Assembly (NCBI RefSeq): GCF_021554725.1
Contig: NZ_JAIZDP010000001.1
Span: forward strand, 496,001 to 560,000
Origin: Sinomonas notoginsengisoli
Lineage (GTDB): Bacteria > Actinomycetota > Actinomycetes > Actinomycetales > Micrococcaceae
Direction: 5' to 3'
DNA: 64,000 nt
Every line of letters begins with the position of its first letter. Position 1 is the stretch's first letter. Shown piece by piece: positions 48,295 through 58,140 of this stretch. The translations under genes and the position numbers were made by a program. The notes beneath the pieces are model-generated. The model was not told the origin of the DNA. It made no database searches and worked only from the letters and a program-made list of their open reading frames with translations.

Positions 48295-49884
48295 CTACTT
48301 GCCGAGGTACTTCTCGAAGCCCTTGGGCAGGTTGAGGGACGCCGGATCGAAGTCCTCCGCCTGGGCGCCGAAGGACGAGCCCTGAGCCGCGCTGACCGCT
48401 TTCGAGGCTCCGGCGGCGCGGCGTGCCTCCGCCTCGCGCAGCTGCTGGGCGGCCTTGGCCGGGTTGCCGGACTTGGCCTTCTTCTTGCCCTTGGCGAGAC
48501 CCTTCTTGGAGCCGCCGAGCCCCCCGCGGAGGCCGGGCATCCCCGGCATGCCCGGAATGCCGCCGCCCTGGGCCATCTTGCGCATCATCTTCTGCGCCTG
48601 CCCGAAGCGCTCGAGGAGGCCATTCACCTCGGAGACGTGCACTCCCGAGCCCTTGGCGATGCGGGCGCGGCGCGATCCGTTGATGATCTTGGGGGCGACC
48701 CGCTCGTGCGGAGTCATGGACCGGACAATGGCCTCGACGCGATCGATCTCGCGCTCGTCGAACTGCTCGAGCTGCTGCCGGAAGTTCTGCGCACCCGGCA
48801 TCATCATGAGCATCTTCTTCATCGAGCCCATCTTGCGGATCTGCTGCATCTGGGCGAGGAAGTCCTCGAGGGTGAAGTCCTCCTGGTCGGCGAACTTCTT
48901 CGCCATCCGGGCGGCCTCGTCCTTGTCCCAGCTGGCCTCGGCCTGCTCGATGAGCGTGAGGACGTCGCCCATGTCGAGGATGCGGGAGGCCATGCGGTCC
49001 GGGTGGAACAGTTCGAAGTCGTCCAGGCCCTCGCCCATCGAGGCGAACATGACCGGACGGCCCGTCACGGACGCGACGGAGAGGGCCGCACCGCCGCGCG
49101 CATCGCCGTCGAGCTTTGAGAGGACGACGCCGGTGAAGTCGACGCCCTCCTCGAAGGCCTTCGCGGTGTTGACTGCGTCCTGTCCGATCATCGCGTCGAT
49201 GACGAAGAGAACCTCGTCGGGGTTGACGGCGGCGCGGATGTCCGCGGCCTGCTGCATGAGCTCGGCGTCAACGCCGAGACGACCCGCGGTGTCGACGATG
49301 ACGACGTCGTGTAGGCGGCTGCGTGCCTCGGCCACACCGTCCCGCGCGACGGCGACCGGATCGCCGGTCGGCGCCTCGAACTCGGACTGGACGCCCGGAT
49401 GCGGCGAGTAGACCGCCACCCCGGCGCGCCGCCCCACCACCTCGAGCTGGGTGACGGCGTTGGGGCGCTGGAGGTCGGCGGCGACGAGGATTGGCGAATG
49501 CCCCTGCCCCTTGAGCCACTTCCCGAGCTTGCCGGCGAGGGTGGTCTTGCCGGAGCCTTGGAGGCCAGCGAGCATGATCACGGTCGGGGGGTTCTTCGCG
49601 AGGCGCAGTCGGCGGGTCTCGCCGCCGAGGATCGTGACGAGCTCCTCATTGACGATCTTGACGATCTGCTGGCTCGGGTTGAGGGCGCCCGAGACCTCTG
49701 CGCCGAGCGCCCGTTCGCGGATGCGCGCAGCGAAGTCGCGGACTACGGGTACCGCGACGTCCGCATCGAGGAGCGCGCGGCGGATCTCGCGGACTGTGGC
49801 GTCGACGTCCGCCTCGCTCAGGCGGCCCTTGCCGCGGAGATTCTTGAACGTCGCAGTTAGACGGTCCGAAAGGGAGTTGAACAC
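48295..49884 (-). CDS. ffh: signal recognition particle protein Ffh
   Basis: SRP GTPase of 529 residues that binds hydrophobic signal sequences and 4.5S RNA and delivers ribosomes to FtsY. It has the N-domain helical bundle, the G domain (GLQGSGKTTLAGKLG, DTAGRLGVD, SKLDGDARGG) and the M domain from about residue 300 (MGSMKKMLMMMPG, RIAKGSGVHVSEVN). The C-terminal ~90 residues add a Gly/Met and Lys-rich tail. GTG at 49884; the ribosome binding site is weak. ftsY lies 7 kb away on the same strand. Confidence 0.97.
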   Translation of the reverse strand: MFNSLSDRLTATFKNLRGKGRLSEADVDATVREIRRALLDADVAVPVVRDFAARIRERALGAEVSGALNPSQQIVKIVNEELVTILGGETRRLRLAKNPPTVIMLAGLQGSGKTTLAGKLGKWLKGQGHSPILVAADLQRPNAVTQLEVVGRRAGVAVYSPHPGVQSEFEAPTGDPVAVARDGVAEARSRLHDVVIVDTAGRLGVDAELMQQAADIRAAVNPDEVLFVIDAMIGQDAVNTAKAFEEGVDFTGVVLSKLDGDARGGAALSVASVTGRPVMFASMGEGLDDFELFHPDRMASRILDMGDVLTLIEQAEASWDKDEAARMAKKFADQEDFTLEDFLAQMQQIRKMGSMKKMLMMMPGAQNFRQQLEQFDEREIDRVEAIVRSMTPHERVAPKIINGSRRARIAKGSGVHVSEVNGLLERFGQAQKMMRKMAQGGGIPGMPGMPGLRGGLGGSKKGLAKGKKKAKSGNPAKAAQQLREAEARRAAGASKAVSAAQGSSFGAQAEDFDPASLNLPKGFEKYLGK

Positions 49885-50025: not shown

Positions 50026-51564
50026 GTGACGACGCAGACAGGGAACACGGCCCAGAGGACCGAGCGCGTAGGCGAGGAGCCGGGCGGGGAACGGCGGGAA
50101 CGGCCAGCCACGGCCGTCCGGAGCCTCCTGATTCTGGGGGCGTCGGGAGACCTCACGGGCCGCTTGCTCTTCCCGGGCCTCGCCCGCCTCCTCGCCACCG
50201 GCAGGCATGCCGGCCTCACCGTAGTCGGCGCCGGTGCCGAGGATTGGACAGCGGAGCAGTGGCGGCAGCGTGTTCACGACGCGACGGCGGATGCCCTCCG
50301 GGACGCGACGCCCGAGGGCCGCACCGAGCTCGAACGTCTCCGCAGAGACTCGGCCTACCTGCAGGTCGACGTCACAGCCCCCGGCGCCCTCGCCGCCGCG
50401 ATCGCGAAGCTCCCGGCGCCGGTGGCCGTCTACTTCGCGCTGCCGCCGGCTGTGGCCCAGAAGGCCTGCGGGCTCCTGGCCCCCTCGGATCTCCCGGAGG
50501 GCACCCGCCTGGCGCTGGAGAAGCCCTTCGGCACCTCGGCGGACTCGGCGGCGAAGCTCAATGACGCGCTGCGCCGGCTCGTGCCGGAGAGCCAAATCCA
50601 CAGGGTGGACCACTTCCTGGGCAAGGGCACGGTCCTGAACATCCTGGGCCTGCGCTTCGCGAACAACTTCCTCGAGCCCGTCTGGAACCGGGACCACATT
50701 GAGAAGGTCGAGATCCTGTTCGACGAGGACCTGAGCCTCGAGGGCCGGGCCGGATACTACGACCGTGCCGGCGCGCTCCGGGACATGATCCAGAGCCACC
50801 TTCTCCAAGTCATGGCAGTCCTCGCCATGGATCCGCCCGCGCATCTCGACGAGCGCGACCTGCGGGACCGCATCAGCACACTGCTGCGCTCGGCGAGGGT
50901 CGACGCGCCGTTCAGTTCATCCACGCGTCGCGCCCGGTATACGGCCGGGAGCATCCATAGCCGCGACGTGCCGGACTACACGGCCGAGCCCGGCGTCGAT
51001 GCCTCGCGGAACACGGAGACCCTCGCCGAGGTGACAGTGACCCTCGCAAGCTGGCGCTGGGCGGGGGTGCCATTCATCCTCCGTTCCGGCAAGTCCTTGG
51101 GGGCCAGGCGGAAGGAGGCCGTGGTGACGTTCAAGCCGGTGCCCCATCTTCCGGTGGGGTTCCGCGGTGTCGACGAGCCCAATCGCCTCCGCATCGGCTT
51201 CGGCCCCGATGTGCTCCAGCTCGACGTTGACGTCAACGGTCCCGGCGACGTGCTGACCTTGAATCGAGTCACCCTCGACGCCGATCTCAGCGAGACCGCT
51301 CTGCTTCCGTACGGCGAGGTCCTCGATGGGGTGCTCAACGGCGACCCCCTCCTGTCCGTGCGCGGCGACACGGCCGAGAGCTGCTGGCGGATCGTGGAGC
51401 CCGTGCTGGAGGCCTGGGCCGCCGGCGACGTGCCGATGGACTCCTACCCCGCCGGAAGCCGTGGGCCAGAGGGGTGGGCGACGTCACAGCGTGGCGACGA
51501 CGGCACTGCCCCAGAGGATGGCACTTCCGCAGAGGATGGCACTTCCGCGGGCTCGCGCCGCTGA
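50026..51564 (+). CDS. glucose-6-phosphate dehydrogenase-like protein
   Basis: Member of the G6PDH family, 512 residues. The N-terminal NADP fold LILGASGDLTGRLLFPGLAR is preceded by a 30-residue polar extension. The substrate/catalytic stretch reads RVDHFLGKGTVLNI instead of the usual DHYLGKE, and later EKPFGTSADSA and RSGKSLGARRKE fit the family. Probably a paralogue, distinct from the zwf of the main pentose-phosphate operon; activity with glucose 6-phosphate is likely but not certain. GTG at 50026 has a CATGCT hexamer 6 bases upstream. The C-terminus contains an exact 18-bp tandem repeat encoding EDGTSA twice. Confidence 0.85.
   Translation: MTTQTGNTAQRTERVGEEPGGERRERPATAVRSLLILGASGDLTGRLLFPGLARLLATGRHAGLTVVGAGAEDWTAEQWRQRVHDATADALRDATPEGRTELERLRRDSAYLQVDVTAPGALAAAIAKLPAPVAVYFALPPAVAQKACGLLAPSDLPEGTRLALEKPFGTSADSAAKLNDALRRLVPESQIHRVDHFLGKGTVLNILGLRFANNFLEPVWNRDHIEKVEILFDEDLSLEGRAGYYDRAGALRDMIQSHLLQVMAVLAMDPPAHLDERDLRDRISTLLRSARVDAPFSSSTRRARYTAGSIHSRDVPDYTAEPGVDASRNTETLAEVTVTLASWRWAGVPFILRSGKSLGARRKEAVVTFKPVPHLPVGFRGVDEPNRLRIGFGPDVLQLDVDVNGPGDVLTLNRVTLDADLSETALLPYGEVLDGVLNGDPLLSVRGDTAESCWRIVEPVLEAWAAGDVPMDSYPAGSRGPEGWATSQRGDDGTAPEDGTSAEDGTSAGSRR
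51513..51548 (+). repeat. tandem 18-bp repeat in the G6PDH-like gene
   Basis: AGAGGATGGCACTTCCGC occurs twice without a gap, in frame; a weaker third relative (GACGGCACTGCC) precedes it. Confidence 0.85.
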
Positions 51565-51637: not shown

Positions 51638-51976
51638 TCAGATCGCGGAGGCGCCGCGTTCTCCCGTGCGGACGCGAACGGCGTCGTGGACATCCAGAAT
51701 CCAAAGTTTGCCGTCGCCTTGGGAGCCGGTCGAAGCAGCCGTGATGATGGATTCGAGGACCTCCTCGGCCTGCTCGTCCGTGGTGAGGACCTCGACCCGG
51801 ATCTTGGGGATGAGGTCCACGCTGTACTCGGCGCCACGGTACACCTGGACGTAGCCACGCTGGCGACCGTAGCCGCTCGCGCCGCTGACGGTCAGGCCCT
51901 GGACGCCCTCGGACTCGAGCTGTTCACGGATGGCGTCGAGCTTCTCTGGCCGGACGATGGCGGTAATGAGCTTCAC
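51638..51976 (-). CDS. glnK: PII nitrogen regulatory protein (first copy)
   Basis: PII signal protein of 112 residues that senses ATP/ADP and 2-oxoglutarate and blocks AmtB when nitrogen is plentiful. T-loop Tyr51 in YVQVYRGAEYS is the usual modification site; in Actinobacteria it is adenylylated by GlnD. The B-loop region TGSQGDGK and C-terminal RVRTGERG are intact. GTG at 51976 overlaps the amtB stop as GTGA (51973-51976). Paralogue of 53674-54012. Confidence 0.94.
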   Translation of the reverse strand: MKLITAIVRPEKLDAIREQLESEGVQGLTVSGASGYGRQRGYVQVYRGAEYSVDLIPKIRVEVLTTDEQAEEVLESIITAASTGSQGDGKLWILDVHDAVRVRTGERGASAI

Positions 51977-53400
51977 GGGCCAACAGTACCCGCGGAGACC
52001 GCTCCGGCCAGCACCCCCTCTGGATGGGCCGCGGGGCGCGGGGCGCCGGAGGAGTGGAGCTTCTCGAGATGCTGCTCGAGGAGCGCCTCGACCGTGTGCC
52101 GGACGCCCTGCGGGTGAAAGCCGCCGCCCGTGGCAGACGAGGGCGAGGCGTACGCGGTCTCGGCGTGGATCACGAGGTCGACACCGGTCTCCTCGACGTC
52201 CCTGGCCACCCGGAAGCCCATGACCGCCTTGATCGCGAGACCGAGCCCGAGTGCGACGCTGAAGGAGTATGCGAGGACGACCACGGAGCCGAGGGCCTGG
52301 GTCCCAAGCAGGGCGAAGCCGCCGCCGTAGAACAGCCCCTGGCCGGGAACCGGTGCGGCCGGATCGGCGGCGAGGCCGATGAAGAGCGTGCCGACGATCC
52401 CGCCCACGAGGTGCACGCCCACCACATCCAGCGAGTCATCGAAGCCCAGACGGTATTTGAGGCCCACCGCGAGCGCGCACACGGCGCCCGCCACGAGGCC
52501 CAGGACGACGGACCACAGGGGATCGATCGTGGCGCACGACGGGGTGATGGCCACAAGCCCGGCCACCGCGCCGGAGGCCGCTCCGAAGGAGGTGGCGTGG
52601 CCATCCCGGATCCTCTCGACCGCCAGCCATGAGAGCACCGCGGCGCAGGGGGCCACGAGAGTGTTGATCCAGGCGAAGGCGGCCTCGCCATTCGCGCCGA
52701 GGGCGGAGCCGGCGTTGAAGCCGAACCAGCCGAACCAGAGGAGGCCGGCGCCGAGCATCACGAGCGGGAGGTTGTGCGGCCGGTGTTCGGGGTCCTTCCC
52801 GAACCCGACCCTGCGCCCGAGGACCAAGGCGAGCGCGAGGCCCGCGGCGCCCGCGAGGACCTCGACCGCCGTTCCGCCGGCGAAGTCGATGAGGCCGAGA
52901 TTATTGAGCCAGCCACCGATGAAGGTCCCGTTCGCGTCCTTCTTCGAGTCGAAGACCCAGTGGGCCACCGGGAAGTAGACGAGGACGGCGAAGGCCCCAG
53001 CGAACACCATCCACGAGCCGAACTTGGCACGGTCGGCGATCGCGCCAGAGACGAGCGCGACGGTGACGGTCGCGAAGACCCCCTGGAACCCGACGAATAC
53101 GATCTCGGGGATGGTGCCCACGAGCGGCATGTCCGCCCCGGTCGCAAGCAGGTTGTGCAGGCCGAACTCCTCGAACGGGTTGCCGAAGAGCCCGCCTCCC
53201 GCGTCAGTTCCGAACGCGATCGAGTATCCGAAGAGAACCCACAGGACACCGACGAGGGCGAGGGCCCCGAAGCTCATCATCATCATGTTCAGCATCGACT
53301 TCACCCGGGTCATGCCCCCGTAGAAGATGGCAAGGCCCGGGGACATGAGGAGCACGAGGGAGGCCGAGACGAGGACCCAGGCGGTGTCACCGGTGTTCAT
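51973..53400 (-). CDS. amtB: ammonium transporter AmtB (variant with Glu at the first pore histidine)
   Basis: Ammonium channel of 475 residues with 11 membrane segments. The pore has Asp172 in LIDFAGGTAVE, the hydrophobic gate GWFGFNAGSAL and His330 in VVGVHLVGG. Where AmtB normally has the first of the twin histidines, this protein has Glu180 (TAVEVLAGAAG). The same replacement is known in yeast Mep1/Mep3 and alters transport. The C-tail is longer and different from the paralogue (RHTVEALLEQHLEKLHSSGA). ATG at 53400; AAAGG lies 11 bases upstream. Coupled to glnK. Confidence 0.92.
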   Translation of the reverse strand: MNTGDTAWVLVSASLVLLMSPGLAIFYGGMTRVKSMLNMMMMSFGALALVGVLWVLFGYSIAFGTDAGGGLFGNPFEEFGLHNLLATGADMPLVGTIPEIVFVGFQGVFATVTVALVSGAIADRAKFGSWMVFAGAFAVLVYFPVAHWVFDSKKDANGTFIGGWLNNLGLIDFAGGTAVEVLAGAAGLALALVLGRRVGFGKDPEHRPHNLPLVMLGAGLLWFGWFGFNAGSALGANGEAAFAWINTLVAPCAAVLSWLAVERIRDGHATSFGAASGAVAGLVAITPSCATIDPLWSVVLGLVAGAVCALAVGLKYRLGFDDSLDVVGVHLVGGIVGTLFIGLAADPAAPVPGQGLFYGGGFALLGTQALGSVVVLAYSFSVALGLGLAIKAVMGFRVARDVEETGVDLVIHAETAYASPSSATGGGFHPQGVRHTVEALLEQHLEKLHSSGAPRPAAHPEGVLAGAVSAGTVGP

Positions 53401-53509
53401 TTCGGGGTGGCCTTTCGACGAGACGTGACCAGTCCTTCCAAGAATCGCTTCCCGGTGTTTCCTTCCGGCGCCACGCATGTTGCCCTCGTGTTACGGGATG
53501 TGGCGAGAA

Positions 53510-53547
53510 GTTAAGGGTTCATCACACCGACGTTAACGCGATGTTTC
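53510..53547. promoter_or_regulatory. GlnR-like operator upstream of the first amtB
   Basis: Four pentamers at exact 11-bp steps, plus strand: GTTAA-n6-ATCAC-n6-GTTAA-n6-GTTTC. This is the layout of actinobacterial GlnR boxes (pentamers separated by 6 bases), 110-147 bases ahead of the amtB start. Confidence 0.7.
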
Positions 53548-53595
53548 GCGGCTCTCGTCCGGCCTCCCTCTCCCTGCCCCCGCCACACAGAAGCA

Positions 53596-53625
53596 GACGA
53601 CGGCGGGGGGTGGCCCGCCGTCGTC
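53596..53625 (-). terminator. terminator between the two amtB-glnK units
   Basis: GACGACGGCGGG/CCCGCCGTCGTC 12-bp perfect stem with a 6-base loop, downstream of the second glnK on the minus strand. Confidence 0.8.
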
Positions 53626-53673
53626 CGTCGTGTTCTCCGCCCGACTCGCTACCCGTTCGGCGGTGCAACGCCG

Positions 53674-54012
53674 CTAGATGGCAGCCGCCCCGCGCTCGCC
53701 TGTCCTGACCCGGATCGCCTCGTGGACGTCCACAGTCCAGACCTTGCCATCGCCGGCCTGGCCGGTGTTGGACGTCGTGATGATCACGTCGAGGATGTCA
53801 TCCGTCTGGTCATCCGTGGCGAGGACCTCGATGCGGATCTTCGGGAGGAGGTTGACGCTGTACTCCGCGCCGCGGTAGACCTCGGTGTAGCCGCGCTGCT
53901 GGCCGTAGCCGCTCGCCGCACTCACCGTGATGCCCTGGACCCCGTAGGCCTCAAGGGCTTCACGGATCACGTCGAGCTTCTCGGGGCGCACGATCGCCGT
54001 GATGAGTTTCAT
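53674..54012 (-). CDS. glnK: PII nitrogen regulatory protein (second copy)
   Basis: PII protein of 112 residues, clearly a duplicate of the one at 51638-51976: the first 14 residues are identical and T-loop Tyr51 is kept (YTEVYRGAEYS). Differences cluster in residues 15-30 and 75-90. ATG at 54012 overlaps the amtB stop as ATGA, with AAGAGGAT upstream. The longer frame that continues through amtB is an antisense-like shadow, not a fusion. Confidence 0.94.
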   Translation of the reverse strand: MKLITAIVRPEKLDVIREALEAYGVQGITVSAASGYGQQRGYTEVYRGAEYSVNLLPKIRIEVLATDDQTDDILDVIITTSNTGQAGDGKVWTVDVHEAIRVRTGERGAAAI

Positions 54013-55397
54013 GCGTTGATCCTCTTTCCCTTGGGATTCGTCAGGAGATCGTCTGCATTGAATGCGTCGGCCTCGGCCTGGGCTTTCGAACCGAGCGGAT
54101 GGAAGCTGGCACCAGTCGAGCCTGCCGTTCCGGCCGAGTAGGCCGTCTCGGCGTGCAGCGCGATGTCGACGCCCGCCTCTTCGGCCTCCGTCGAGACACG
54201 GAAGCCCATCGTCTTGGAGATGATCCAGCCGATCACGAGGGAGAGGACGAACGAGTACACGAGCACCGTGCCGGCGCCTAGCGCCTGCTTGCCGAGGAGC
54301 TCGAAGCCACCGCCGTAGAAGAGGCCCTGGCCCTTGGACGGGGCGCCGGGGCCCGCCGCGAGGCCGATGAAGAGCGTTCCGACGATGCCGCCAACGAGGT
54401 GGACCCCCACCACGTCGAGCGAGTCGTCGTAGCCGAAGCGGTACTTGAGGCCCACGGCGAGAGCACAGACCGCGCCGGCAATGAGGCCGAGCACGATGGC
54501 CCACAGGGGCGAGATCGCCGCACACGCGGGGGTGACGGCCACGAGCCCCGCCACTGCGCCCGAGGCCGCACCGAGGGACGTCGCGTGGCCGTCGCGAAGC
54601 TTCTCCACGATGAGCCATCCGAGTACCGCCGCGCAGGGAGCCACGAGCGTGTTGATCCAGGCGAACGCAGCCACGCCGTTGGCCCCGAGGGCGGAGCCCG
54701 CGTTGAACCCGAACCACCCGAACCACAACAGGCCCGCGCCGAGCATCACGAAGGGGAGATTGTGCGGGCGGTGGTTGGGGTCCTTGCCGAAGCCGCTGCG
54801 CTTGCCGAGGATGATGGCGAGGGCAAGGCCAGCCGCGCCGGCGTTGATGTGGACCGCGGTGCCGCCAGCGAAGTCGATCACGCCGAGGCCGTTGAGCCAG
54901 CCCCCGATGAAGTTGCCGTCGGCGTCCTTGTTGGCGTCGAACACCCAGTGCGCGACCGGGAAGTAGACCAGGATCGCGAAGAAGAACGCGAAGACCATCC
55001 AGGCGCCGAACTTGGCGCGGTCCGCGATCGAGCCGGAGATGAGCGCCACCGTAATAATGGCGAAGACGCCCTGGAAGCCGACGAATGCCAGTTCCGGAAT
55101 CGTCCCGGCCAGCGGCATGTCGTCTCCCGTGGAGAGGGTCCCGTGGAGGGCGAACTTGTCGGCGTTGCCCACGAGCCCACCGAACCAGTCGGAGCCGAAG
55201 GACATCGAGTACCCGACGAGCACCCAGAGCACGCCCACGAGGGCAATGGCACCGAAGCTCATCATCATCATGTTCAGGACGGACTTGGCGCGCGTCATGC
55301 CGCCATAGAAGAACGCGAGCCCAGGCGTCATGAGCAGCACGAGCGCTGCCGAGGCGAGCACCCAGGCGGTGTCTCCCGCGCTGAGGGTGGGTGTCAT
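54009..55397 (-). CDS. amtB: ammonium transporter AmtB (canonical twin-His form)
   Basis: Ammonium channel of 462 residues with 11 membrane segments. Here both pore histidines are present: His183 in TAVHINAGAAG and His333 in VVGVHLVGG, with Asp175 in VIDFAGG and the GWFGFNAGSAL gate. ATG at 55397 has AAAGG 8 bases upstream. It is followed by its own glnK and a terminator, and preceded by a GlnR-like operator shared with a divergent MFS gene. Confidence 0.95.
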   Translation of the reverse strand: MTPTLSAGDTAWVLASAALVLLMTPGLAFFYGGMTRAKSVLNMMMMSFGAIALVGVLWVLVGYSMSFGSDWFGGLVGNADKFALHGTLSTGDDMPLAGTIPELAFVGFQGVFAIITVALISGSIADRAKFGAWMVFAFFFAILVYFPVAHWVFDANKDADGNFIGGWLNGLGVIDFAGGTAVHINAGAAGLALAIILGKRSGFGKDPNHRPHNLPFVMLGAGLLWFGWFGFNAGSALGANGVAAFAWINTLVAPCAAVLGWLIVEKLRDGHATSLGAASGAVAGLVAVTPACAAISPLWAIVLGLIAGAVCALAVGLKYRFGYDDSLDVVGVHLVGGIVGTLFIGLAAGPGAPSKGQGLFYGGGFELLGKQALGAGTVLVYSFVLSLVIGWIISKTMGFRVSTEAEEAGVDIALHAETAYSAGTAGSTGASFHPLGSKAQAEADAFNADDLLTNPKGKRINA

Positions 55398-55552: not shown

Positions 55553-55590
55553 GTTAAGGGTCTGTCACGGGAACGTTTCAGAGGTGTTTC
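55553..55590. promoter_or_regulatory. GlnR-like operator between amtB and the MFS gene
   Basis: Plus strand GTTAA-n6-GTCAC-n6-GTTTC-n6-GTTTC at exact 11-bp steps. Compared with the first amtB operator, the pentamers match at 17 of 20 positions but the spacers only at 9 of 18. It ends 15 bases before the MFS start and overlaps its -35 region. Confidence 0.75.
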
Positions 55591-56919: not shown

Positions 56920-58140
56920 TCAGGCGAGGATCGCGTCCACGAAGTCCTCGGCGTCGAAGGGAGCGAGATCGTCCGGGCCCTCGCCGAGTCCCACGAGCTT
57001 GACGGGTACTCCGAGCTGCTTCTGGATCGCGACGACGATTCCGCCCTTGGCCGTGCCGTCGAGCTTCGTGAGGACGATGCCCGTGATGTCAACGACCTGG
57101 CCGAAGACCTTCGCCTGGGTGAGGCCGTTCTGGCCCGTCGTGGCGTCCAGGACGAGGAGGACCTCGTCAACCTCGGCCTGCTTCTCAATCACACGCTTGA
57201 CCTTGCCGAGCTCGTCCATGAGGCCGACCTTGTTCTGGAGGCGGCCCGCGGTGTCCACCATCACGACGTCGACCTCCTGCTCGATGCCGGCCTTGACCGC
57301 CTCGAAGGCGACCGAGGCAGGATCAGCGCCGTCGACGTCCGACTTCACGGTGGGGACCCCCACACGCGCGCCCCAGGTCGCCAGCTGCTGGGCAGCGGCG
57401 GCACGGAACGTGTCCGCAGCGCCGAGCAGCACATCCTTGTCCTCGGCGACGAGAACTCGTGCGAGCTTGCCCACGGTCGTGGTCTTGCCCACGCCGTTGA
57501 CGCCGACCACGAGCACGACGGCCGGCCTGCCATCCGCGCGGGAAACCTTCAGCGAACGATCCATGCCCGGATCGACGAGCTTGACGAGTTCTTCCCGGAG
57601 CATCGACTTGACTTCGTCGGGGCTGCGCGTGCCCATGACCTTGACGCGGTCGCGCAGGGTGTCCACGAGCTCGAGGCTGGGCTCAGTGCCGATGTCCGCG
57701 AGCAGGAGGGTCTCCTCGACCTCGTCCCACACGTTCTCGTCGATCGTGTCGCTCGCCAGCAGGGCGAGGAGACCCCTGCCGAACAGGTTGTTGCTCTTGA
57801 CGAGCCGCTCCCGCAGGCGCTGCAGGCGACCAGCGACGGGTGCCGGTGTCTCGGTGGGGACGCGCTCGATGACAGACTCGTCGAGCACATCCTGCTCGGG
57901 CGCCTCCCCCACGGGCCCGGACGGCGCCGGTAGGGTGCCGACGCCACCGGGTGGGGCCTGTTCGGCGTCGAGGGCGCTGGGGCGGTCCGACGTGATGACC
58001 GGATCGTTGGCGTCGCGAGGCCCGGTGTAGTCGATCTTCTTCCGGCGGCCACTCACGAGGCCGATGACGATCCCGGCGATGACCAGGACCACGATTGCAA
58101 TGATGATGATGACGGGCAGCAGGGCGGAGAGGTCTGTCAC
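56920..58140 (-). CDS. ftsY: signal recognition particle receptor FtsY
   Basis: SRP receptor GTPase of 406 residues. An N-terminal membrane helix (LLPVIIIIAIVVLVIAGIVI) anchors it, followed by an acidic/Pro-rich linker, the N domain and the G domain with GVNGVGKTTTVGKLA, DTFRAAAAQQL, DTAGRLQNKVG and TKLDGTAKGG. GTG at 58140 has a short AGGTG-like site close upstream. Downstream of smc on the same strand, as usual in Actinobacteria. Confidence 0.97.
   Translation of the reverse strand: MTDLSALLPVIIIIAIVVLVIAGIVIGLVSGRRKKIDYTGPRDANDPVITSDRPSALDAEQAPPGGVGTLPAPSGPVGEAPEQDVLDESVIERVPTETPAPVAGRLQRLRERLVKSNNLFGRGLLALLASDTIDENVWDEVEETLLLADIGTEPSLELVDTLRDRVKVMGTRSPDEVKSMLREELVKLVDPGMDRSLKVSRADGRPAVVLVVGVNGVGKTTTVGKLARVLVAEDKDVLLGAADTFRAAAAQQLATWGARVGVPTVKSDVDGADPASVAFEAVKAGIEQEVDVVMVDTAGRLQNKVGLMDELGKVKRVIEKQAEVDEVLLVLDATTGQNGLTQAKVFGQVVDITGIVLTKLDGTAKGGIVVAIQKQLGVPVKLVGLGEGPDDLAPFDAEDFVDAILA

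Follow-up and report, generated by a model that had tools for sequence, protein, structure and literature searches.

Organization of the amtB–glnK locus

The 64 kb stretch of DNA analysed here, referred to as the window and derived from the soil bacterium Sinomonas (Micrococcaceae), carries at a conserved ftsY–ffh locus two amtB–glnK units arranged head to tail, both on the minus strand. The upstream unit consists of an amtB gene (54009–55397), whose product retains both pore histidines, His183 and His333, and scores 453.9 bits against TIGR00836, followed by a glnK gene encoding a PII protein (53674–54012) with a 4-base overlap. In the downstream unit, the amtB gene (51973–53400) encodes a protein in which Glu180 occupies the first pore-histidine site (GAG codon at 52861–52863, minus strand) and His330 the second; its glnK gene (51638–51976) has a GTG start that overlaps the amtB stop by 4 bases. 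The twin-His motif is complete in the upstream protein (His copy) and incomplete in the downstream one (Glu copy). A terminator-like hairpin of 14 pairs (53594–53627, minus strand) separates the units, and both this feature and the gene coordinates agree with the earlier note's description of two complete tandem units with an intervening terminator. Two sites of this kind occur in the region versus 1.5 expected from shuffles. The hairpin stretch has a minimum free energy of −36.7 kcal/mol (z −2.0), and in 14/15 Sinomonas genomes, G001 being the exception, its stem sequence lies within the 300 bases that precede the Glu amtB.

The Glu copy is an ordinary full-length Amt (TIGR00836 428.9 bits, cut-off 343.3), and both copies exceed the PF00909 cut-off. 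Its AF2 model has a pLDDT of 90.7, and a Foldseek search gives PDB entry 2b2f as the best match (TM value of 0.97 by target length), with E. coli AmtB also at the top. The conserved pore residue Asp172, the Phe gate and His330 are retained. The incomplete twin-His motif does not exclude the Glu copy from the Amt family, because fungal Mep1 and Mep3 lack the motif too. By sequence, both copies are Amt-branch members of the Amt/Mep/Rh family; ammonium transport itself is predicted. The system shares with E. coli AmtB–GlnK the fold, the equivalents of Asp160, Phe107/Phe215, Trp212 and His318, and the presence of a PII partner gene, which in Sinomonas overlaps amtB with amtB first; it differs in having Glu for the first pore histidine, two tandem units and no GlnD found.

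A natural glutamate at the first pore-histidine site

A phmmer comparison with the protein data bank aligns Glu180 to E. coli His168 and His330 to His318, with no gap through the motif. The mapping is exact, and the alignment to E. coli AmtB bears out the earlier note's assignment of both pore histidines to one AmtB and of Glu180 plus His330 to the other. One of the aligned E. coli AmtB chains, 2now, also has Glu at position 168. This is the engineered H168E variant (PDB 2now; PMC9040831), which has the same residue at the same site; by comparison, the Sinomonas glutamate is natural, fixed and possibly attended by accommodating changes, such as Ser288 at E. coli Ala275. The literature passages retrieved name a natural Glu at this site in fungi alone.

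An erroneous codon, arising through sequencing or alignment, is a vanishingly improbable explanation of Glu180, and nothing was found in its favour. The Glu copy is found in 15/15 Sinomonas assemblies, and a change from CAY to GAR takes two base substitutions, so a sequencing error, which the earlier note had listed as a risk, does not account for it; the glutamate in many further taxa and the ungapped motif alignment likewise refute an artefact.

Promoter arrays and PII partners

Upstream of each amtB, on the minus strand, lies a GlnR-like array of repeats with an 11-base period: GAAAC-n6-GAAAC-n6-GTGAC-n6-TTAAC for the His copy (55553–55590) and GAAAC-n6-TTAAC-n6-GTGAT-n6-TTAAC for the Glu copy (53510–53547), the motif being compared with forms given in excerpts of PMC10704036. 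The His-side array has the highest score on either strand of the 64 kb; the Glu-side score is equalled by 6/1000 shuffles of the same stretch and by an unrelated position, 26170. Across the genus, the best upstream array scores at least 24 in 15/15 His and 15/15 Glu regions, versus 0/300 shuffles for each, the best Glu-side array of G006 being a shifted one. The repeats suggest that the units are putative GlnR-regulated operons.

The genome also encodes a GlnR-type regulator, whose best PDB matches, 8hig (1.5e-75) and 8hih (7e-75), are listed only as OmpR-type regulators and are presumably GlnR structures; 4o1h, listed as GlnR, matches at 1.3e-26. Gene order, GlnR-type repeats and a GlnR-type regulator are shared with the GlnR-controlled amtB–glnK–glnD operons of Streptomyces and Mycobacterium, from which Sinomonas differs by the lack of a detected glnD, duplication of the unit and alteration of one pore.

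Both PII proteins of the window genome exceed the PF00543 cut-off of 25 (95.6 and 94.9 bits), and their matches to two E. coli-type NCBIfam PII equivalogs fall below cut-off. In the window, the T-loop of the His-linked PII has E44 and Y51, and that of the Glu-linked PII has Q44 in place of E44 with Y51 retained. Across the genus, Tyr51 is present in 28/28 Sinomonas PII proteins, E44 in 15/15 of the His-linked and Q44 in 12/13 of the Glu-linked ones. The earlier note's statement that each AmtB has its own PII stands for 13/15 Sinomonas and fails in G001 and G009, where neither a second PII nor a remnant was found within the 11–12 kb searched. No GlnD match exceeds the cut-off of 519.4 in any of the 15 Sinomonas genomes (best 37.4 bits, with every match spanning less than a quarter of the model), a result to be read alongside a control that passes in E. 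coli and C. glutamicum, yet in only 2/14 genomes, so that a diverged GlnD is possible. Given that no GlnD was found, control of GlnK would be exerted by binding of ATP, ADP and 2-oxoglutarate alone.

The residue-44 difference between the T-loops hints at specialised Amt–PII contacts, which would fit a Glu copy that transports little ammonium on balance and serves chiefly to sense it, recruiting its own PII or letting it go. Bacterial Amt sensors such as Ks-Amt5 do exist, according to excerpts of PMC10433425. However, the Glu amtB reading frame contains no fused signalling domain, Phe gate, Asp172 and His330 are all kept, the second PII is missing from 2/15 Sinomonas, and H168E raises transport by E. 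coli AmtB rather than abolishing it (PMC9040831, excerpts). We regard a primary sensor role as quite unlikely.

Origin and selection within Sinomonas

A search of related genomes for the duplicated unit, as the earlier note had proposed, recovered the His and Glu AmtB pair in 15/15 Sinomonas. In stretches from five sister genera, one close amtB, of the His type, lies near ftsY in 7/7 cases, and ffh is also seen in all six stretches long enough to include it. In the tree, the Sinomonas Glu clade is nested inside the Sinomonas His copies. Because sister genera have one close copy, of the His type, and the Glu clade falls within the His copies, the tandem is, judging from gene order and phylogeny, the product of an in-place duplication of amtB–glnK near ftsY/ffh in the Sinomonas ancestor, followed by a His-to-Glu change in the downstream AmtB.

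Both AmtB copies are under purifying selection, with dN/dS medians across 105 genome pairs of 0.124 for the His copy and 0.139 for the Glu copy, which lends no support to a decaying duplicate. The Glu copy is the faster-evolving of the two, its dN exceeding that of the His copy in 93/105 pairs.

Glutamate-pored Amts across prokaryotes

Among prokaryotes, natural Glu-Amts are found in actinobacteria, proteobacteria, planctomycetes, verrucomicrobia, firmicutes and methanogens, and the His–PII–Glu–PII order is found at five other actinobacterial loci; the pairing is thus not peculiar to one bacterium, a breadth that the earlier note did not bring out. A fast tree of 206 rows, built with the site omitted, gives 12 His/Glu changes, of which 11 are forced by starred branches, and placing all 22 Glu rows in a single clade is rejected in a 47-row test (p-AU 1e-8). 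Together with the nesting in Sinomonas, these results rule out one ancient Glu-Amt subfamily; on phylogenetic grounds, Glu-Amts are judged to have had several independent origins, among both bacteria and archaea.

Pattern counts of Glu-Amts are lower bounds. The strict pattern misses TGVE (G008), GGLPVE (G316, G421) and GGNVVE (L378–L382), and since it misses some Glu forms, the phylum sample holds at least 4/149. In that sample the Glu pattern has two exact matches inside Amts (the window and G022) and two one-mismatch matches, located off the contigs that bear those genomes' Amts. Among the matches listed, 77/118 Amt-bearing genomes of the phylum sample have a single Amt match, and the ten other adjacent Amt pairs fetched, picked out by eye from their coordinates, are all His+His, one of them (L226) head to head; tandem pairing is accordingly rejected as a hallmark of Glu. 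Not counted as tandem pairs were L151 and L159, with an Amt in pieces, and L100, whose His partner is more than 4 kb away. No article evidently on tandem amtB–glnK duplicates, and none evidently relevant to Sinomonas ammonium transport, was found among the matches listed.

The second pore histidine is retained in 119/119 aligned Glu-Amts, and a twin-His Amt is also present in 28/28 other Glu-Amt genomes checked. In 222 aligned rows, from loci chosen in part by a Glu pattern, the first site holds Glu or His alone, with no Asp, Gln or Ala. These regularities bear on the possibility that the His-to-Glu change is tolerated and near-neutral, the gene being a spare one retained for its dosage, a reading consistent with the transport retained by E. 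coli AmtB H168E (PMC9040831, excerpts) and with the somewhat faster evolution of the Glu copy. Against it stand the restricted choice of residues at the site (albeit in a partly Glu-selected set), the two base changes required, the recurrence of the Glu state and its subsequent retention in 15/15 Sinomonas, and the twin-His companion in 28/28 genomes. A redundant copy is therefore unlikely.

Members of a pair share 43–78% identity in 15 non-window pairs and 73% in the window, which would be compatible with co-assembly of His and Glu subunits into hetero-trimers tuned by the Glu copy. In Rhodoluna and Aurantimicrobium the pair members lie close together, and no PII was found in the stretches examined. 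On the other side, a hairpin stands between the two Sinomonas units, both of which have a promoter array, and in many Glu-Amt genomes the His partner is far off or on another contig. Mixed trimers as the main explanation appear very unlikely from these comparisons.

Ser288, at E. coli Ala275 as counted along the alignment, tends to accompany Glu180. As the best of ten residue tests, it goes with Glu in a mean of 4.8/11 independent pairs and hardly ever in the opposite direction (mean 0.0), the uncorrected median p being 0.06.

A proposed prokaryotic parallel to the Mep1/Mep2 division

The earlier note's comparison with yeast, where Mep1 and Mep3 carry Glu and Mep2 His, is supported, as is its site mapping. 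Fungal Mep1/Mep3 and the prokaryotic Glu-Amts have the same Glu at the first site, keep the second histidine and are found with the other kind in the same genome. Although the Glu copy has the residue combination of fungal Mep1/3 (Glu first, His second), the position of its clade inside the Sinomonas His-Amts, in a tree built without fungal rows, speaks against a Glu ancestry shared with them. Bacterial and archaeal Glu-Amts also differ in their independent origin and frequent location beside PII genes, Sinomonas amtB in its GlnR-like promoter arrays, and no link with filamentation is known for the prokaryotic proteins.

Characterised transporters offer a guide to function. Excerpts of PMC9040831 report that E. 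coli AmtB H168E passes a current of 22.28 versus 3.38 nA, has a Km of 12.9 versus 0.8 mM and shows no K+ current; the strongly expressed variant was judged toxic to yeast, and no toxicity was seen with a weaker promoter in the same group's earlier work. Excerpts of PMC7048316 describe yeast Mep2 H194E as Mep1-like, with an increased Vmax and a shifted pH optimum, and record electrogenic transport for the yeast proteins. According to the same source, Mep2 H194E gave no current in oocytes, where the protein is unstable, and Mep1 with the histidine restored is inactive. Mep1 has a Km of 258 µM at −100 mV in oocytes (PMC7048316, excerpts), so that 'low affinity' may not hold for the Glu copy. An AmtB point mutant, moreover, may not predict the behaviour of a natural Glu-Amt with compensating changes. 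The purpose of the twin-His motif is described as still an open question in an excerpt of PMC10433425.

By analogy with these proteins, there is about an even chance that the pair parallels, in a prokaryote, the Mep1/Mep2 split of yeast, the Glu copy being the higher-flux, lower-affinity transporter. In such a two-speed uptake system, both units would be switched on by GlnR under nitrogen shortage. The His copy would bind ammonium tightly, transport it more slowly and serve when very little is present. The Glu copy would be a faster, lower-affinity, charge-moving transporter with a different pH optimum, useful at ammonium levels that are low without being vanishingly so, or on a shift of pH. 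Its own GlnK would plug the Glu pore once nitrogen is restored; the harm that unchecked flux through such a pore can do would explain why the Glu copy is usually coupled to a GlnK of its own.

The division of labour put forward in the earlier note, with pH, ammonium level and energy coupling as candidate axes, fits the two retained copies, their separate arrays and the twin-His companion in 28/28 genomes. More broadly, we tentatively propose, at somewhat less than even odds, a second, glutamate-pored Amt class that evolved repeatedly, by convergence, to accompany rather than replace a twin-His Amt. It would provide two-channel uptake with distinct energetics, like Mep2/Mep1, often in a His–PII–Glu–PII cassette and possibly with some contribution from mixed trimers or from a dedicated PII plug.

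In effect, nature has carried out the His-to-Glu exchange repeatedly, in both bacteria and archaea, with a matched His partner in the same cell. Close natural His/Glu pairs share 73–78% identity, and such native matched pairs allow direct tests of what the first histidine does, of electrogenicity and of PII gating.

Organization of the amt locus and conservation of the pore site

The amt cluster lies on the reverse strand and begins, in reading direction, with amtB(His) (54009-55397), whose product keeps both pore histidines, directly followed by the His-linked glnK (53674-54012). A terminator-like hairpin (53627-53594) separates this unit from amtB(Glu) (51973-53400), which encodes Glu180 at the first pore-histidine site, and the Glu-linked glnK (51638-51976). 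On one side the cluster is bordered by ftsY (56920-58140) and smc, on the other by ffh (48295-49884), all assigned by family model; a glucose-6-phosphate dehydrogenase gene (50026-51564; NF009492) sits between the cluster and ffh and is also present in five of seven sister-genus stretches. The two AmtBs share 73% identity over 457 aligned residues, both pass the curated Amt cut-off of the family model, and they are the only Amt matches in the window genome.

Consistent with the earlier note, a phmmer alignment equates Glu180 with His168 of E. coli AmtB, and His330 of the Glu copy with His318; 2now, one of the aligned E. coli AmtB chains, has Glu at 168. Among 222 aligned Amts, the equivalents of Asp160, Trp212, Phe215, Thr273 and His318 are invariant in Glu and His forms alike, that of Phe107 (F109) is nearly invariant, and the second histidine is retained in all 119 Glu-Amts, that is, Amts with Glu at the first site. 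The predicted structure of the Glu copy is confident (pLDDT 90.7) and matches AfAmt-1 and AmtB.

History of the pair in Sinomonas

An adjacent amtB pair, one His and one Glu, occurs in all 15 Sinomonas genomes. A family sample of 80 genomes contains a single close homologue in 13 genomes of five sister genera, each with His at the site (L232-L244); in the seven stretches fetched from these genera, one close amtB is located near ftsY, and the six that extend far enough have ffh on its other side. In a 66-row tree all 15 Glu copies group as a single clade within the Sinomonas His copies. The pair is thus the product of an in-place duplication followed by the H to E change, which takes two base changes. 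Median dN/dS over 105 genome pairs is 0.124 for the His copy versus 0.139 for the Glu copy, which has the larger dN in 93 of them. Two genomes (G001 and G007) encode a third, more distant Amt of the twin-His type, with His at both sites (L033, L034).

PII proteins and candidate regulation

The proposal that each AmtB has its own PII holds in 13 of the 15 genomes, which have two PII genes, and fails in G001 and G009, where only the His-linked gene is present and no remnant of a second glnK was found beside the Glu-Amt in the 11-12 kb searched. T-loop position 44 is Glu in all 15 His-linked PIIs and Gln in 12 of 13 Glu-linked ones, including the window glnK at 51638-51976; the Glu-linked PII of G012 keeps Glu44 and has Gln50. 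Tyr51 is retained in 28 of 28 PIIs, and its modification appears doubtful because no GlnD match exceeds the cut-off in any of the 15 genomes, although a control shows this cut-off to be strict.

The window genome encodes a GlnR-type regulator whose best PDB matches are 8hig (1.5e-75) and 8hih (7e-75), listed as OmpR-type and which we take to be GlnR structures; its match to 4o1h, listed as GlnR, is 1.3e-26. Arrays of 5-base half-sites with an 11-base period, candidate GlnR sites, precede both amtB(His) (GAAAC-n6-GAAAC-n6-GTGAC-n6-TTAAC) and amtB(Glu) (GAAAC-n6-TTAAC-n6-GTGAT-n6-TTAAC). When all positions on both strands of the 64 kb are ranked by a simple score, the His array comes first and the Glu array ties for third, level with an unrelated position (26170); shuffles of their own stretches reach the observed score in 0/1000 and 6/1000 cases, respectively. 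Upstream regions from all 15 Sinomonas genomes give a best score of at least 24 for the His and the Glu copy alike (15/15 each; shuffles, 0/300 each), the best Glu-side array in G006 being a shifted one. No sigma-70-type promoter passed the scan. The form of the arrays agrees with the GlnR motifs described in a review (PMC10704036).

Functional reading of the Glu copy

Published mutants at this site serve as an analogy for the Glu copy. As given in PMC9040831, E. coli AmtB H168E shows a raised current (22.28 versus 3.38 nA), a Km raised from 0.8 to 12.9 mM and no K+ current; it was judged toxic to yeast at strong expression and, in earlier work, not under a weaker promoter. According to PMC7048316, yeast Mep2 H194E has a raised Vmax and an altered pH optimum and no longer signals; it gives no current in oocytes, where the protein is unstable. 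Effect sizes of these mutants may differ in a natural Glu-Amt with compensating residues. In view of their behaviour, we favour a reading in which the Sinomonas pair would act as a two-speed uptake system, the Glu copy being faster, leakier and under PII control.

Distribution and origins of Glu-Amts

The excerpts of PMC9040831, PMC3647058 and PMC7048316 name fungi alone as having natural Glu at this site, those of PMC10794816 and PMC10433425 are silent on it, and within the literature searched prokaryotic Glu-Amts were not found as a subject in titles or abstract beginnings. A scan of GTDB genomes with the pattern DFAGG[TSA][AV]VE returned at least 117 stretches, and 109 of the 117 listed contain an open reading frame for a Glu-Amt, truncated or fragmented in some cases; the other eight are chance matches. 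The listed taxa include actinobacteria, planctomycetes, verrucomicrobia, proteobacteria, Desulfosporosinus, Sulfurihydrogenibium, Methanobrevibacter, Methanoregula and others. In three Desulfosporosinus loci (L090, L176, L177) the Glu-Amt gene and an opposite-strand PII gene lie end to end with adjoining stops.

Within the family the pattern occurs in 38 of 295 genomes, 24 of them outside Sinomonas, across 8 of 32 genera. The 21 Micrococcaceae loci examined outside Sinomonas (L038-L058; DFAGG[AT]VVE...) fall on the tree as a different paralogue, a second, independent Glu-Amt; no PII was found in 3 kb about each, and most come from one genus. A looser pattern matches 69 of 394 genomes of the class, with 27 of 30 inspected loci being Glu-Amts, and at least 4 of 149 genomes in the phylum sample have one. 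The strict pattern misses a form with Pro before Glu, mostly DFAGGLPVE, seen in about a dozen genomes of a large-genome actinobacterial genus (g36); three loci fetched from it (L403, L404, L405) are Amts adjoining a PII.

Phylogenetically, Glu-Amts are of many origins. Built without the site itself, a FastTree covering 206 Amts, a fast method with long branches, needs 12 H/E changes, gains or losses, of which 11 are forced by starred branches; a mixture-model tree of 47 rows with the site left in needs eight. A single clade of all 22 Glu rows is rejected on the latter (p-AU 1e-8).

Companion Amts and tandem pairs

Forty of the 109 listed loci lie outside Sinomonas in records not titled MAG, and 28 were picked. 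Each of these 28 genomes has at least two Amt matches, among them one or more twin-His Amts, part of the extra matches having been classified; a single match is found in 77 of the 118 Amt-bearing genomes of the phylum sample. Under random spread over Amt genes, finding 0/28 in single-Amt genomes has a probability of 1e-7, or about 0.003 with ten lineages taken as independent, values that serve only as a guide, as the two sets are not matched by taxon.

A His neighbour lies within about 2 kb at no fewer than 14 of the 109 listed loci (2 Sinomonas and 12 others), a minimum, given how many stretches are truncated; the class sample adds five tandem pairs, and two further loci end too early to tell. 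Every such pair is His+Glu, with no Glu+Glu pair among them. Adjacent Amt pairs as such are common, and all ten fetched from the phylum sample are His+His. In Sinomonas and in the 14 actinobacterial pairs from outside this genus, it is the His gene that stands upstream; the Glu gene takes that place in both verrucomicrobial pairs and in the Methanoregula pair. Five loci from other genomes (L158, L178, L412, L415 and L416) repeat the order His-PII-Glu-PII.
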